64,000 nt of DNA, taken from contig JALGVJ010000004.1 of NCBI GenBank assembly GCA_029838195.1, positions 1 to 64,000 of the forward strand, written 5' to 3'. A program made the translations under genes and the position numbers. The DNA comes from Promethearchaeota archaeon. GTDB lineage: Archaea; Asgardarchaeota; Lokiarchaeia; Sigyniarchaeales; SOKP01. This document shows, one piece after another, positions 1,857 through 29,478 of the stretch. Numbering within the stretch: position 1 is the stretch's first letter; each line of letters starts with the position of its first letter. The notes under the pieces are model-generated. The model was not told where the DNA came from. It did no database searches and worked only from the letters and a program-made list of their open reading frames with translations.

Positions 1857-4358
1857 ATGAGCCTCAAGGAATTTTCTAAGGAGATTTTTACTCGATATGG
1901 ATTAAATGACCAGCAAATTCGGATATACTTGGGTTATTTAAGAGTTCCACGCGCAACGCCCAGTCAAGTCTATTTAATGTTTTCGGAGGAAGATGGTATT
2001 GATTATGAAACCGTCGTGGAAACGACTAATTTTTTGGAAGAAAAGGGATTTCTTAAAAAAATTGAGGGTGCAATTTCGGGACTAAATAGGTACATTCCGC
2101 TTGAACCTTATTTTGAATTATTCGTGAATGAATCGGCTGGATTTAGAGAGGAAATTGCTAAGATTAAAGACGACATCTTAATCGAGCAATCGACTCAATT
2201 TTCCCGCTTAGACGAGGTCCAACAAGAAAAAGTGGGAGAAATTGATTCGACAGTAAGAACTCAAATAAGCGAATTTTTCAAGGATGCGGATAATAAGAAT
2301 GCAGAAGTGAAAAATATCCTTAAGGAAAAAAATGATTTCTTTTCCGCCACGAATAAAACTATCGAAAATAAGCTTCATAAAAACTTGGAAAATACACATT
2401 CCGAACTGAAGGGAGATATTCAAGGTTTAGATACGGAATTAAGTTCCATTTCGGAGACCCACAAGAATTCATTAAAATCATTAGAACAAAAATTACATGA
2501 GGTAAAAGATCTCTTAAATGCGGATTTAAAAAATATATCGAAAGCCTTTGTCGAGGAAAATGAGAAGGAGATTAATTCTGCTAAAGAGGGCATCTCCAAT
2601 ATGGTTGCAGAAATGTTGAAGGATTTTAATGAGCGCACTAAGGATTTAGAGATTGAATTAAAGAAGAATTTAGAGGAGCACGTGGAGAGGCATGCGAGTA
2701 TCGCTAATGAATTAAAACCGCAAATGGAGCAGATTCTTGATAAATATTTGGAGCGCATGGAGAAAATCGTTACGGATTTAAAAAAGCAAATCTCTAAGCT
2801 CTTGAAAACTCATGAAAATCAAATTCAAAATTTCACGAATGCATTAGAAACCAATTTAAAAGCCAAGATTGAAAAACGGCACGAAATCTTGGTAGAGCAA
2901 ACCACTAATTTTAAAAATACTACTTTACGATTAATCGATAATTTGTTGGAACATGCAAACCGTTTCACGGATTTTTCTGAAGATATGGCAAAAAAAGGCT
3001 TTTTCTGGATTGGTAAGAAGCAAAAATATAAAGAAAGAAATGAAGGCGTGATTCGGGATGTACTCACCTATACAAAACCCATGCGTGAATCGTTTACCAC
3101 GGAATGCAATGAATACATGGATCAAACAAGGGCTACCAATAGTGAATTGAAAAATGAAATATCCACCACCTTATCAACTGAAAATGAAAAAATTTTCAAG
3201 GAAACGGAACAATTAAATGACGATGCTCAAAGATCCATTGAAGCTCAATTAGAGATCTTGGCTACAGACATGGCTTCGGAAATAGATACCACGCTTCAAA
3301 AAGGCGTAAAAGATTGTTCTGATACCACCGTTAAATTAAAAGATTCCCTCGAAAGTACCCTTTCGCAGTACAATAAGCAACATGGCGAAGAAATGAGACG
3401 ACATGAAGAAACCACTTTAAGGCATTATACTAATTTTGATAAAGATATTAAAATTAAAAATGAAGATTGGGTTAAAGATGCAGGTGTTAAATTTTCCGCA
3501 GGAAAGAAGGATGTCTCTAACCTCGTGGAATCCATCATCAGTGATATTGATAATTTTATTTCTAAGCGGAAAAAAGTGGAAGAAGAACGATTAAAAAAGA
3601 TACGCACGGATTTTGATGATTCAAAAGCGTTTGTAACAGAAAACATTAATTCACAAATTACCACGTGGAATGAAGCCTCTGCAGACATGGAATCTCAGCT
3701 CGAGAATCTTTTAAATGCCCATAAAACAACATGCCAAGAAAATGCTAGCACTCTCCAGAAGCAATTAACTGAAACGATAGGTAGCACGATTAATGCTGAA
3801 AAAGACATCTTTTCCGATTTTAATGCAAATTTTATCAAGGCAATCAATGACGCAACAGATATTGCAGAAACCAATGAAGAAAAATTAAAAGAAATCTATC
3901 GTGCGTCTGCGGCAATAGAAGAACCCACAAAAATTACCACCTGGCATACGGTGGGAATGAAAGCATTAATTTCTAACATAAAAGACATGATTTATCGCGT
4001 GAAATCCTCTATTATCATCGTTCTACCTGAAGTTATCCCCGAAATTCTTAAATTCGTATCTGAAATTGCTTATCAAAAGAAGGCGGCACGCTTCATGCTC
4101 ACGAGCAATTTTGATCTAAGCGTGTATGGTCCCATTCTTAATAAAATGAAACTCTTAGGCAACATTCAATTTCGCCAATTAGGAACACCCGGAGAATATT
4201 ATGCTGTAACCAGAGATGCTGAAGAAGTCATCATTGCCCCAGCAACTAAAGATGAAGCTCAACTCATTAGCATGGTATCCACTCAAGAATCCTATGCAAA
4301 ATTATATGCTCAATTCATCGGACCTATTTTTACTGCGAATAGTAGGCCAATCAGATGA
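1857..4358 (+). CDS. TrmB-type winged-helix protein with giant coiled coil and PLD-like C-terminal domain
   Basis: An 833-residue protein. Residues 1-85 resemble the TrmB family winged helix (helix, turn, recognition helix, then wing around LKKIEG). Residues from about 90 to 690 are almost entirely charged heptad-like sequence rich in E, K, N and S, with no membrane span, so a long coiled coil is predicted. Residues about 705-833 resemble the phospholipase-D-like effector domain of TrmB regulators (hydrophobic strand IIIVLPEVIPE), but no HKD catalytic motif is visible. TrmB regulators are normally about 250-350 aa, so the two ends look like a regulator split by a roughly 600-residue coiled coil. 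A DNA-bound structural or chromosome-organising role is one possibility. The ATG start follows an AT-rich leader. It stands alone on its strand. Confidence 0.75.
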   Translation: MSLKEFSKEIFTRYGLNDQQIRIYLGYLRVPRATPSQVYLMFSEEDGIDYETVVETTNFLEEKGFLKKIEGAISGLNRYIPLEPYFELFVNESAGFREEIAKIKDDILIEQSTQFSRLDEVQQEKVGEIDSTVRTQISEFFKDADNKNAEVKNILKEKNDFFSATNKTIENKLHKNLENTHSELKGDIQGLDTELSSISETHKNSLKSLEQKLHEVKDLLNADLKNISKAFVEENEKEINSAKEGISNMVAEMLKDFNERTKDLEIELKKNLEEHVERHASIANELKPQMEQILDKYLERMEKIVTDLKKQISKLLKTHENQIQNFTNALETNLKAKIEKRHEILVEQTTNFKNTTLRLIDNLLEHANRFTDFSEDMAKKGFFWIGKKQKYKERNEGVIRDVLTYTKPMRESFTTECNEYMDQTRATNSELKNEISTTLSTENEKIFKETEQLNDDAQRSIEAQLEILATDMASEIDTTLQKGVKDCSDTTVKLKDSLESTLSQYNKQHGEEMRRHEETTLRHYTNFDKDIKIKNEDWVKDAGVKFSAGKKDVSNLVESIISDIDNFISKRKKVEEERLKKIRTDFDDSKAFVTENINSQITTWNEASADMESQLENLLNAHKTTCQENASTLQKQLTETIGSTINAEKDIFSDFNANFIKAINDATDIAETNEEKLKEIYRASAAIEEPTKITTWHTVGMKALISNIKDMIYRVKSSIIIVLPEVIPEILKFVSEIAYQKKAARFMLTSNFDLSVYGPILNKMKLLGNIQFRQLGTPGEYYAVTRDAEEVIIAPATKDEAQLISMVSTQESYAKLYAQFIGPIFTANSRPIR

Positions 4359-25628: not shown

Positions 25629-27344
25629 TTATTTCCGTGCCTCTTCTTCTCTTAAAGCTTTTTTCAACACCTTTCCAACTAATGTTAACGGAAGCTCCTC
25701 GCGAAATTCCCATATTTTCGGTACCTCGTATTTAGCAAGATTTTCTTGCGCAAATTTCTGTATGCTTTCCTTCACCTCTTCCGTTGCTTCAATTCCTTGC
25801 TTCAATTGCACGATCGCCTTGACAATTTCACTGCCCGGACGATTTGGATCCGGTACCCCAATAATGGCTAACAATTGGATGGCCGGATGTTTTGTCAAAA
25901 CTTCCTCTACATGGACACTATAAACCTTGAATCCGCTCACGCTTAGCATGTCTTTCGTGCGGTCTATAATTTTTAAATAGCCATCTTCGTCAAAGATTCC
26001 CACATCGCCCGTGTGGAGCCATCCATTGATCCAAGTTTGCACCGTTGCTTCAGGCTTTTTATAATATCCGTGAGTAATTTGAGGACCCTTAAGACAAATT
26101 TCACCCGGTTGTCCAACTTCAACTTCTTCTCCTGTTGAAACATCTACTAGTATGACTTCCGTATCCGGAAGAGGAAGCCCGACAGAGCCAATGCGTTTCT
26201 CTCCTAATGCGGGATTGACCGTTACGAGTACCGCAGATTCCGTCATACCATAAACCTCCACGAACTTATTTTGTGTATAAAATTGCTTTTCAAATTCTTT
26301 AATAGCTTCAGGTGGAAACGGTGCCGCCCCTGACACGTATAACGATATATTTTGTAATATCTCCGGAGGAATTTCCTTGGACTTGGGATTTCTCATTAGC
26401 ATCAAGTATAATGTGGGAACATTTCCAAAACAAGTTATCTTTTTATCGATGATTTCATGAATGATATGGTCCGTATCTCGTGGATTGGCAATGATCACGT
26501 GAGAAGATCCTATATATGTGAGAAAAAGCCCAATGAATAATCCGGCAATATGAAAATAAGGAAAAGCGGAAAGAGTTATGTCAGTTCCCTTCTTCCTGTT
26601 AAGCCACGTGTCAAATTGCTGCATATTTGCGTGCAAGTTAAAGTGAGTTATTTCAACGCCTTTTGGCTTGCCCGTCGTGCCCCCTGTATATTGGATTTGA
26701 GCTAAATCATTTTTTGGGTCGATTTCTACTTTCTTCAAATCAATGGGAGTTTCCACGGCTTCCAAAAAGGGTACCACTTTCTTACCCGGCCAGGGCTTGA
26801 TTTTTCCCGAAGGAATCTTCTTTATGAGTTTTCCCATGAACACTTTAAATTTCGAAAAGCCCATGAACTCGGAAATGTTGGTAGGAATGATCACTTCAAC
26901 TTTGGGCAATTTATCCAAGATTTTGCTAAAGATTTTTTCATAGACAATATCCATAGTTACGACAAACTTAGTATCCGAGTCATCTAATTGATAGGCAATT
27001 TCAGGAGGGCTTAATAGAGGTGAGCAGCCAGAACATATCCCTCCAGCAATATAAGTTCCATATACTGTGATTAGATATTGTGGGCTGTTTGGAATGTTCA
27101 CGGAAACTACGTCTCCTTTTTTTAGGCCATTTTTTTGGAGAAACGTTGCAAATTTTTGGGATAGATTTAAAATTTCGCCGTAGGTCATGGCTCTATCCAT
27201 GAAATAGAATCCGATTCTATCTTTAAACGTTTCCATGGCGTTGGTAAGGCACGTTCCCAAGTCCTCTAAGACATAATCAAGGGAGGGGGGAACATGCTTA
27301 TCATAGGATTTCAACCAGATTTTTTCTTTACTTGTAAAGGTCAT
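25629..27344 (-). CDS. long-chain acyl-CoA ligase (AMP-forming, FadD-like)
   Basis: A 571-residue adenylate-forming enzyme that activates fatty or other carboxylic acids to CoA thioesters. It has the P-loop YTGGTTGKPKG, VEVYGMTE (A5), the GWLHTGD motif, and the C-terminal lysine region VGKVLKKALREEE. The length and motif set fit medium- or long-chain acyl-CoA synthetases rather than acetyl-CoA synthetase, which is encoded separately at 35.8 kb. It is divergent from the lysoplasmalogenase-like gene and close to the PlsY fusion, which needs acyl-phosphate or acyl donors. Confidence 0.9.
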   Translation of the reverse strand: MTFTSKEKIWLKSYDKHVPPSLDYVLEDLGTCLTNAMETFKDRIGFYFMDRAMTYGEILNLSQKFATFLQKNGLKKGDVVSVNIPNSPQYLITVYGTYIAGGICSGCSPLLSPPEIAYQLDDSDTKFVVTMDIVYEKIFSKILDKLPKVEVIIPTNISEFMGFSKFKVFMGKLIKKIPSGKIKPWPGKKVVPFLEAVETPIDLKKVEIDPKNDLAQIQYTGGTTGKPKGVEITHFNLHANMQQFDTWLNRKKGTDITLSAFPYFHIAGLFIGLFLTYIGSSHVIIANPRDTDHIIHEIIDKKITCFGNVPTLYLMLMRNPKSKEIPPEILQNISLYVSGAAPFPPEAIKEFEKQFYTQNKFVEVYGMTESAVLVTVNPALGEKRIGSVGLPLPDTEVILVDVSTGEEVEVGQPGEICLKGPQITHGYYKKPEATVQTWINGWLHTGDVGIFDEDGYLKIIDRTKDMLSVSGFKVYSVHVEEVLTKHPAIQLLAIIGVPDPNRPGSEIVKAIVQLKQGIEATEEVKESIQKFAQENLAKYEVPKIWEFREELPLTLVGKVLKKALREEEARK

Positions 27345-27477
27345 GATTATCCCTTTTGAATTTATTAAATGGAATTATATAATATTGATTGGAACCTTTT
27401 TAAACCTTATCATGGAATAGAAGAATGGGTAAAAAAGGATGTAAAATTTAAAACGATTAAAAGATTTACCAAATATC

Positions 27478-28161
27478 ATGATAACTATTATTATTCTAAT
27501 AATATATTTGATAATGGCCGTTGCAGATATAATCGTGGTAGAAAAGAGACTCAAGAAGCTGGAATATGTCTTTAAGTGTTCTTTAATGCCTCTTTTAATC
27601 TTTTATTACGTGGTAAGCACTGTGGGAACTGCCATGATGGACGTATTGATAATTCTGGCACTTATTGGGGGTTTTTTTGGAGATTTTTTCTTAGTATTGG
27701 AAAATGAGGAGAAATGGTTTATTTTTGGAATGCTTGCATTTTTATTGGGGCACGTGTTCTATATTCTTTCCTTCATGTTTTCTCTTTGGAGTTATTTTGT
27801 AGCAGGGATTTCAATTAATTTAGTTTTTATCATACTACTCTTGTTCATTCCGGTGGTCGTCCTTATTGGATTTACTTATCCGAAATTTAATAAATTTTTA
27901 GGAGAGATGAACATTCCCGTACACGTGTACATGATAGCGATCTTGATAATGCATGTTTTTGCGACTTTGCGCGTGATTAGATTTGGCGTTTTCAGTTTCA
28001 TTTTAACGTGGCTGGGTTCCATTTTATTCATATCTTCTGACTCGCTGATTGCAATCAAGACTTTTAATAAAGAGTTAAAACTAAGGCACGTAGATGCCGT
28101 GATAATGGCAACTTATATATTAGGCCAATTTTTCATCATTCAAGGGCTTCTCATGGCGTGA
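27478..28161 (+). CDS. YhhN/TMEM86-family lysoplasmalogenase-like membrane protein
   Basis: A 227-residue protein with about eight membrane helices. The family features are a Lys-containing second helix (KCSLMPLLIFYYV), a GDFFLVL acidic motif, GMLAFLLGHVFYI, and a last helix with YILGQFFIIQG. YhhN/TMEM86 enzymes hydrolyse the vinyl-ether bond of lysoplasmalogens; an archaeal substrate could be another ether lipid. It lies between the acyl-CoA ligase and the PlsY-kinase fusion. It starts at ATG after an AT-rich leader. Confidence 0.72.
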   Translation: MITIIILIIYLIMAVADIIVVEKRLKKLEYVFKCSLMPLLIFYYVVSTVGTAMMDVLIILALIGGFFGDFFLVLENEEKWFIFGMLAFLLGHVFYILSFMFSLWSYFVAGISINLVFIILLLFIPVVVLIGFTYPKFNKFLGEMNIPVHVYMIAILIMHVFATLRVIRFGVFSFILTWLGSILFISSDSLIAIKTFNKELKLRHVDAVIMATYILGQFFIIQGLLMA

Positions 28162-28260
28162 ATTAAACGAGATCTTGAAAAATGGTAAATTAACTTTTTT
28201 TTCACATCATTTTTTTGAAATTTTAAATTACAAAGTATAAAATAAGAATAAAATGATGAT

Positions 28261-29478
28261 TTAGAGGCCAAAAAATCGTGTCACTTCCATAACCACAGCT
28301 GAAATTAGAGGAACGGTGAAATTATCATTTATTCCCCGGGAAATGAGTTCCGTGATGGGGGCGGTTATCGCTCCTATGAGAATTATATACGTGGAGATAT
28401 TTATTAGAACATTAGACAGCACGTACCAACAAATGAGAACGGCTCCAAAATAGGCTAAAGTACCTTCAAGCGTCTTGTCGAAAATCGGGTGCTTTCCAAA
28501 ACCTAATCCAAAGATTTTACTGAAGAGATCACCAAATATTGCGAAGGCTACGGCAGTAATAGCGATATCTTTTTCAAATAGCAAGAGAACAATGAAAGTC
28601 CCTACTAAGAAGGCGCTCATTGAAGAGAACTTTTCTTCTTCTCCTTTCCTGAAAATGGTTTTTATACGTTTCGTAAGGAGTTCTTGAGTTGATTTACTGA
28701 GTATTTTAGAGAGGTCCATGAGGATAAAAGCTAATGAGACGGCTCCAATGATAATGATGGACGCGGGTTTTTCCAAGTAATAATGAAAGACAAGGAAAAG
28801 TACCGCAAAAGGCCGCAAGCCGGTACGCCACCAATGCGTCTTGAATTCTTCATTTTCGATGATAATATATTTCCGGTCGATGATGTTGTAAATACCGATG
28901 GTCATGATGTGAGCTAAAAGGATCCAGAGAAAAAGATTATAACTATTTCCTGGAAAACTTATAAGCACGTAAAATCCCAACAAGGGCAAGATGAGCACGG
29001 ATAGGAATTCTCCCACTCTGGTGATATAATAAAAAATTGCGACTAATACCAAGCAAAAAGCAATGAAGAGAAAAAAGTCCGGCCATTGTGTAATGAGGAG
29101 ATAATTGACCAGGTAAAAGAGCATGATTCCCACGGCACATGCCACGCCTTGTCCCCCTTTAAATTTAAGATAAAAGGGAAACACGTGTCCTACGATTGCC
29201 AGCAAGCCTGCTATTTGAATGAAATAAAAATTAGCTCCTAAAAGCGAAGCAATCCCCATGGCTAATAATCCTTTTAACGTATCGTAGATAGCTGTAGGGA
29301 TCGCATATATTAATCCTAAAGACCGATAAACGTTCATGGTGCCTGCGTTACACGTTCCCACGTTTCTGATGTCCACGCCTTTTAAGCGACCAAATAAATA
29401 AGCGGGTAAAACAGAGCCGATAAAATAGCCAAGAATGACGCTAATTATATTTGAAAACATTAAATTAATTGATTCCAT
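28261..29478 (-). CDS. fusion of PlsY-type glycerol-3-phosphate acyltransferase with a CTP-type lipid-kinase domain
   Basis: A 405-residue polytopic protein. Residues 1 to about 205 are PlsY-like: GYFIGSVLPAYLFGR, then DIRNVGTCNAGTMNVYRSLG (canonical GSGNxGAxN here GTCNAGTMN), then GHVFPFYLKFKGGQGVA (canonical GGKG here GGQG). PlsY transfers acyl groups from acyl-phosphate to glycerol-3-phosphate. Residues about 225-405 match the DGK1/SEC59 core: FGDLFSKIFGLGFGK, KTLEGTLA, then a late acidic NDNFTVPL. I do not know this fusion from characterised enzymes. It might acylate a glycerol phosphate and phosphorylate a lipid, or recycle a polyprenol. Confidence 0.82.
   Translation of the reverse strand: MESINLMFSNIISVILGYFIGSVLPAYLFGRLKGVDIRNVGTCNAGTMNVYRSLGLIYAIPTAIYDTLKGLLAMGIASLLGANFYFIQIAGLLAIVGHVFPFYLKFKGGQGVACAVGIMLFYLVNYLLITQWPDFFLFIAFCLVLVAIFYYITRVGEFLSVLILPLLGFYVLISFPGNSYNLFLWILLAHIMTIGIYNIIDRKYIIIENEEFKTHWWRTGLRPFAVLFLVFHYYLEKPASIIIIGAVSLAFILMDLSKILSKSTQELLTKRIKTIFRKGEEEKFSSMSAFLVGTFIVLLLFEKDIAITAVAFAIFGDLFSKIFGLGFGKHPIFDKTLEGTLAYFGAVLICWYVLSNVLINISTYIILIGAITAPITELISRGINDNFTVPLISAVVMEVTRFFGL

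Follow-up and report, generated by a model that had tools for sequence, protein, structure and literature searches.

In PlsY enzymes of solved structure the phosphate of glycerol-3-phosphate (G3P) is clamped by Ser35, Arg45, Lys104 and Asn180, its 2-hydroxyl is held by Ser142 and His177, and the acyl-phosphate donor is held by His92 together with the backbone of residues 104-107; Asn37 is the probable oxyanion stabiliser, and the role of the base falls to the acyl-phosphate itself (PMC5700162). Bacterial PlsY accepts both G3P and glycerol-1-phosphate (G1P) (PMC13400652). PlsY has been reported in Lokiarchaeota, with discussion of bacterial-type or chimeric lipids, and surveys found no gpsA-type G3P dehydrogenase in Loki- and Thorarchaeota (PMC6431249, PMC6737245). 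One review regards the function of the Lokiarchaeota PlsY and PlsC homologues as still to be elucidated (PMC9385802), and a 2026 paper uses these homologues to argue that Asgard PlsY could act without G3P (PMC13400652). Here we describe a PlsY-like protein fused to a kinase-like domain, encoded in a 64,000-nucleotide window (the whole stretch of DNA that was analysed: positions 1 to 64,000 of contig JALGVJ010000004.1, assembly GCA_029838195.1) from a Promethearchaeota archaeon of the class Lokiarchaeia. In the open-licence literature no paper was found on a PlsY-kinase fusion, on loss of the G3P site, on PlsY together with dolichol kinase, or on DGK1, SEC59 and VTE5 jointly. Comparison of the available sequences indicates that the fusion architecture is conserved, uncharacterised and non-archaeal in origin.

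Architecture of the fusion protein

The fusion is encoded on the minus strand of the window:

28261..29478, minus strand: fusion open reading frame (ORF) of 405 amino acids (aa), with an ATG start and a stop at 28261-28263
28864..29478, minus strand: PlsY-fold half, residues 1-205 (PF02660, E 6.7e-32; Foldseek match to PlsY 5xj7)
28264..28863, minus strand: CTP_transf_1 / DGK1-SEC59-like kinase half, residues 206-405 (PF01148 in relatives, hhalign, model)

A preliminary description of this DNA had proposed that a PlsY-like half is joined to a kinase-like half, and on reading the ORF both were found in one uninterrupted frame of 405 codons running from 29478 to 28261, with the boundary that it had placed at 28864 falling at residue 205. 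The PF02660 match covers residues 16-190 (E 6.7e-32, 111 bits against a Pfam cut-off of 24), and the protein matches PlsY of known structure with E 8e-18. The structure prediction that had been suggested was performed with AlphaFold2 from an input alignment of 43 sequences, giving a model with mean pLDDT 93.1 and pTM 0.88. When this model was compared with the PDB by Foldseek, five PlsY entries were retrieved (E 3.8e-6 to 1.3e-4, TM-score 0.64-0.68 by target length; 5xj7 at E 3.8e-6 and TM-score 0.68) with nothing significant after those, and the PlsY fold was in this way recovered for the first half. Since the same architecture is present at full length in many independent Lokiarchaeia assemblies (48-57% identity) and in bacteria (30-50%), the fusion is no assembly accident.

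The second half (residues 206-405) of the window copy itself has no Pfam match. Among 39 aligned relatives, 16 match PF01148 (CTP_transf_1) in this half, with a best E of 3.4e-5, and the half aligns over 174 columns to a stand-alone kinase-like family of Lokiarchaeia with an hhalign probability of 99.8, the stand-alone alignment also including the kinases of two split gene pairs described below. For this half the model pLDDT is 90. Foldseek against the PDB gave CdsA 4q2g as the best match to this half, a weak one (E 0.13, probability 0.57); a sequence-profile search of the PDB returned no match for it, and a tblastn search of plasmids no labelled relatives. Two sequence elements were located in the kinase half:

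28462..28533, minus strand: presumed CTP-binding signature GDLFSKIFGLGFGKHPIFDKTLEG, residues 316-339
28309..28326, minus strand: C-terminal DNFTVP segment, residues 385-390, in the place of the CDP-diacylglycerol synthase signature

The first of these reads GD..S..FG..FGK...F.KTLEG in the window copy, and we take it, from general knowledge of the CTP-dependent lipid kinase family, to be the CTP-binding signature. It is present in every Lokiarchaeia copy and in most bacterial ones, the strict pattern being missing in six divergent bacterial copies. The CDP-diacylglycerol synthase signature HGGxxDRxD was found in none of 67 distinct fusions, and a CDP-diacylglycerol synthase was ruled out on that ground. 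The CTP-kinase-like character suggested earlier for this half is supported by the PF01148 matches and the alignment to the stand-alone family; the C-terminal half is described here as CTP_transf_1/DGK1-SEC59-like, any naming beyond the Pfam relation resting on motif knowledge rather than on characterised members.

Substrate sites of the PlsY-like half

The PlsY-like half was compared residue by residue with canonical PlsY, residue numbers such as His177, Lys104 and Asn37 being those of PlsY and residue roles being taken from PMC5700162. Two motifs carry most of the comparison:

29323..29358, minus strand: Motif 1 GTCNAGTMNVYR, residues 41-52 (from the alignment and the residue roles in PMC5700162)
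29140..29190, minus strand: Motif 2 GHVFPFYLKFKGGQGVA, residues 97-113 (from the alignment)

In Motif 1 of the window protein Asn37 and Arg45 are kept, with Thr42 in place of Ser35 and Met48 in place of Thr41, and in Motif 2 His92 and the Gly-rich acyl-phosphate loop are kept, with Gln110 in place of Lys104. The altered motifs noted in the preliminary description, GTCNAG (residues 41-46) and GGQG (residues 108-111), are therefore as it described them. The window protein has the whole acyl-phosphate pocket (His92, GG-G loop, Asn37) and, of the G3P-binding residues Ser35, Arg45, Lys104, Ser142, His177 and Asn180, only Arg45, with Thr for Ser35.

The same pattern was seen when residues were counted over the 67 distinct fusions, which come from Lokiarchaeia and bacteria. 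On the acceptor side His177 is found in 0/67, Lys104 in 6/67 (Gln in 51/67), Ser35 in 9/67 and Arg45 in 16/67, and the positions of Ser142 and Asn180 are variable. On the donor side His92, Gly102, Gly103 and Gly39 are present in 67/67, Asn42 in 66/67 and Asn37 in 48/67. Canonical single-domain PlsY sequences (26 bacterial, 30 Asgard) have His177, Asn180, Lys104, Asn37 and His92 without exception. The conclusion does not depend on the last ~25 residues of the Aquifex aeolicus PlsY that guided the alignment, since an H-x-x-N motif occurs in 26/26 bacterial and 30/30 Asgard canonical sequences and His98 is the only conserved histidine in the PlsY half of the fusions. These comparisons indicate that the G3P-binding site has been lost and the acyl-phosphate site retained, so that the changed acceptor at which the altered motifs had hinted gains in weight.

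Since 14 of the 17 invariant columns of the fusion alignment lie in the PlsY half, this half is under strong constraint rather than decaying, and a dead PlsY half was rejected for most copies. PlsY activity proper was not supported: besides the dismantled G3P set, the window protein scores 88.3 bits with the PlsY equivalog model TIGR00023, below the NCBIfam cut-off of 137.2 bits, and a branch with SH-aLRT 97 separates the fusions from canonical PlsY. Grouping of the PlsY half with non-acyltransferase homologues had been named beforehand as a refutation of the earlier proposal. This holds in part: the half falls outside the canonical clade, and its neighbours there are paralogues with no assigned activity.

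A divergent but functional G3P (or G1P) acyltransferase, making ester or mixed ether/ester phospholipids in Lokiarchaeia in line with what earlier surveys took for granted, seems very improbable in view of these data. It would agree with the shared fold, with the acceptance of both G3P and G1P by bacterial PlsY and with the presence of PlsC-type domains in 76/83 Lokiarchaeia genomes. Single-site PlsY mutants do retain some activity (S35T 17%, H177A 6.5%; PMC5700162), and because of this the case for lost G3P function rests on combined loss, that of His177 together with, usually, Lys104, Asn180 and Ser142. The equivalog score and the position outside the canonical clade speak against such an enzyme, as does the lack of PlsX and FakB in Lokiarchaeia (see below). 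Most fusion-bearing bacteria, moreover, keep a separate canonical PlsY: a further PlsY-type gene was found by the same search in 18/23 such genomes, 17 of the 23 having a best PlsY match of E 6e-44 or better in full-coverage frames. The lipid gene inventory is based on family searches, and nearly all genomes are metagenome assemblies; absences hold for sets of genomes, not for single ones. Taken together these findings suggest that the fusion is probably not a G3P acyltransferase.

Distribution and origin

The 67 distinct fusion relatives are spread over Lokiarchaeia and some ten bacterial phyla, the bacterial copies belonging to WOR-3, Latescibacterota, Aminicenantes, KSB1, Hydrothermota, Pseudothermotoga, Calditrichota, Bipolaricaulota/Acetothermia, a Spirochaetaceae bacterium and others. 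PF02660 was detected in 34/83 genomes of the window's class. In the window's family every full-length PF02660 match lies within an open frame of 392-433 aa, the exceptions to the fusion frame being short or truncated matches, and the fusion occurs at 1-3 copies per genome, often in tandem. In a sister family of Lokiarchaeia, two genomes have other PlsY-like proteins. In a tree of full-length fusions the Lokiarchaeia copies form one clade (bootstrap 100, SH-aLRT 99), which adjoins WOR-3/Latescibacterota and is nested in bacteria (98/86, 97/88, 100/99; midpoint-rooted). This nesting of a single clade indicates one transfer from bacteria to Lokiarchaeia. What had been presented as an archaeal oddity is an architecture of bacterial origin, apparently acquired once. 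As for the further suggestion that such fusions might be common and characterised as other enzymes, no characterised fusion came to light.

Two bacterial genomes have the same two parts as separate, overlapping genes, the PlsY-like gene preceding the kinase-like one:

L163: 1831-2433, PlsY-like; 1247-1852, kinase-like
L166: 2034-2648, PlsY-like; 2620-3204, kinase-like

Because the parts recur in this second arrangement, the split pairs are independent evidence that the PlsY-like and kinase-like parts work together. Coupling of the halves is accordingly supported, at the level of gene arrangement, by the fusion, which Lokiarchaeia share with about ten bacterial phyla, and by the split pair in two bacterial genomes.

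Proposed mechanism and alternatives

The reading that we prefer, with a probability of roughly 0.4, is a two-site membrane enzyme whose halves would work in series, the product of the kinase being consumed by the PlsY-like half with an acceptor other than G3P. We infer catalytic activity for both halves, an order of steps and substrates as follows. The C-terminal half would be a DGK1/SEC59-type lipid kinase that uses CTP to make a phosphorylated lipid, the simplest being an acyl-phosphate from a free fatty or isoprenoid acid. The N-terminal half would grip the lipid acyl-phosphate in the kept PlsY pocket and support attack on its carbonyl, and the rebuilt second-substrate site would let the acyl group pass to an acceptor other than G3P. 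Since in PlsY the acyl-phosphate itself acts as the base, the donor site could in principle work without the clamp residues. If the kinase half supplies the acyl-phosphate, the enzyme would be independent of PlsX and FakAB. A kinase is the recurring partner of PlsY-type domains, and for this reason we propose, with modest confidence, that the kinase half supplies the phosphorylated lipid. The more specific proposal of a new pathway taken from bacteria by Lokiarchaeia, in which a CTP-dependent membrane kinase would make acyl-phosphate for the fused PlsY-like transferase and the latter would acylate a compound other than glycerol phosphate, is put forward tentatively.

The distribution of other acyl-phosphate sources was examined in this light. 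PlsX was found in 0/83 Lokiarchaeia genomes and in 0/27 separately tested Asgard genomes, two of them in the window's class, and DegV/FakB was absent from the 83 Lokiarchaeia apart from one 43-residue fragment, with no intact FakB. Among 228 Asgard genomes DegV occurs in 37/37 with a high-scoring canonical PlsY as against 12/191 others (Fisher p 1.6e-32, shared ancestry being ignored); at a credible score it occurs in 0/31 Asgard fusion genomes. The window's family of Lokiarchaeia has only the fusion and no canonical PlsY.

Several points weigh against the order kinase first, transferase second. The DGK1/SEC59 kinases characterised so far phosphorylate lipid alcohols with CTP, and we know of no precedent for a kinase of this fold that phosphorylates a carboxylate. 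Asgard genomes with canonical PlsY also lack PlsX, so that the absence of PlsX does not by itself single out the fusion. In the split pairs Ser35, Arg45, Lys104 and Asn180 are all present, His177 and Ser142 being the only acceptor-side residues that are missing, and these pairs may therefore use a phosphorylated acceptor. Lastly, Asn37 is missing in 12/43 Lokiarchaeia copies (GxG[IV]AGT type), and the PlsY half of these copies may as a result be incapable of catalysis.

The first of these points leads to the main rival, in which acyl transfer would come first. The PlsY half would use an acceptor that carries no phosphate (glycerol, a polyol or a mono-ether glycerol), and CTP-dependent phosphorylation of the acylated product by the kinase half would then yield a lipid resembling lysophosphatidic acid, with no G3P involved. 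We consider this order possible, if somewhat doubtful. It fits known DGK1-type chemistry better than the preferred order does, the loss of most phosphate-clamp residues would suit an acceptor that carries no phosphate, and the failure of the surveys cited above to find a gpsA-type dehydrogenase in Loki- and Thorarchaeota is in keeping with it. An acyl-phosphate source would still be needed, however, with neither PlsX nor FakB in Lokiarchaeia, and the split pairs keep most of the clamp.

The loss of Asn37 bears on a second rival, which we think unlikely: that the PlsY half is a lipid-phosphate-binding module rather than an acyltransferase, delivering, orienting or releasing what a polyprenol, phytol or diacylglycerol kinase half has made, and that the protein as a whole is a salvage kinase. 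The persistence of the kinase signature in all Lokiarchaeia and most bacterial copies, alongside the Asn37 losses, would be expected of such a protein, and no part of the PlsY half is better preserved than the phosphate pocket; yet Asn37 is kept in 48/67 copies, and the concentration of invariant residues in the PlsY half would be surprising for a mere adaptor.

In tandem fusion pairs (L004, L006, L027, L031, L036, L037) one copy has Asn37 and the other Ile (GxGIAGT), which hints at a division of labour or a heterodimer.

Related loci and genomic neighbourhood

PlsY-type genes were also seen beside kinases outside the fusion. A fakA-like gene, DegV/FakB and a canonical plsY are adjacent in two genomes of one Asgard family (L192 3281-6063 and L194 1513-4266; G162, G165), with a stop within the DegV frame of L194; as these genomes lack PlsX, the cluster has the look of an archaeal route to acyl-phosphate that does without it. 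In the sister Lokiarchaeia family a PEP-synthase-type dikinase (PPDK_N, PEP-utilizers) is the partner of a PlsY-like domain, either within one protein of 1025 aa or as a neighbouring gene (L160 1869-4943, L161 260-2499), and the active-site residues of this PlsY-like domain are degenerate. A fusion, a stand-alone PlsY-like gene, FakA and DegV/FakB stand in a row in one Aminicenantes genome (L054 5989-10268). Asgard family f17 (G161-G169) shows an unusual expansion, each genome carrying 4-13 paralogues with PF02660 and as many as 24 copies of DegV. Stand-alone PlsY-like paralogues, mostly without His177, adjoin family 2 glycosyltransferases (L167, L168, L169, L170, L179), of which the one tested resembles HpnB/CruG, and may acylate glycolipids. 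Most PlsC homologues of Lokiarchaeia have two domains in tandem and a length of 550-580 aa (G000:C67:3981-5168 and relatives).

In the window the fusion lies near two further genes:

25629..27344, minus strand: long-chain acyl-CoA ligase (PF00501, E 3.9e-84); membership in the fusion system unsupported
27478..28161, plus strand: YhhN/TMEM86-like protein (PF07947, E 2.5e-33); membership in the fusion system unsupported

The ligase and the lysoplasmalogenase-like gene named in the preliminary description are thus real, but since the YhhN-like gene intervenes on the opposite strand between ligase and fusion, the three are not one operon, and none of the other fusion loci retrieved has either gene next to the fusion. 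Lokiarchaeia fusions most often lie near genes for prolyl-tRNA synthetase, TFB and an uncharacterised protein, and in several Aminicenantes the fusion precedes GAPDH, PGK and TIM. The archaeal lipid cluster in which the fusion had been placed was rejected on account of these unshared neighbours and the opposite strand of the YhhN-like gene, and because the ligase and YhhN-like genes do not recur, the neighbourhood says little about function.

Implications

PlsY and PlsC homologues have repeatedly been cited as a sign of bacterial-type or mixed membranes in the archaeal relatives of eukaryotes (PMC6431249, PMC6737245, PMC13400652). Judging from the class as a whole, the Lokiarchaeum GC14_75 gene included, it is most probably the fusion that has been reported as "PlsY" from Lokiarchaeota. 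Since every near-complete PF02660 protein in the window's family is a fusion with the G3P site gone, the "PlsY" argument for bacterial phospholipids in Lokiarchaeia needs re-testing; other Asgard lineages, with canonical PlsY and FakB, are a better place to look for bacterial-type lipids.

Comparison with known systems

PlsY (YgiH, PF02660/TIGR00023) shares with the fusion its fold, the acyl-phosphate pocket (His92, GG-G loop), the Motif 1 skeleton G-x-x-N-x-G-x-x-N and DxxKG. The fusion differs from it by the loss of His177, Asn180, Lys104, Ser142 and usually Ser35 and Arg45, by its second membrane domain and by a score below the equivalog cut-off. With the DGK1/SEC59/VTE5-type kinases (PF01148) the fusion has in common the signature GD-(6-7 residues)-G-x3-G-x-n-K-[TS]-x-E-G, the C-terminal DN-x-[TS]-V and the lack of a CDP-diacylglycerol synthase signature, whereas the window copy is below Pfam detection for this family, the fusion copies are joined to a PlsY-like partner and the first-helix RK-x-x-H of the stand-alone kinase-like relatives is replaced by WWR-x-x-x-RP. 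FakA/FakB likewise pairs a kinase with a PlsY-type consumer of acyl-phosphate, and its genes cluster with canonical plsY in certain Asgard genomes and stand beside a fusion in one Aminicenantes genome, but it is a soluble two-protein system of an unrelated kinase family, and its FakB component is absent from Lokiarchaeia.

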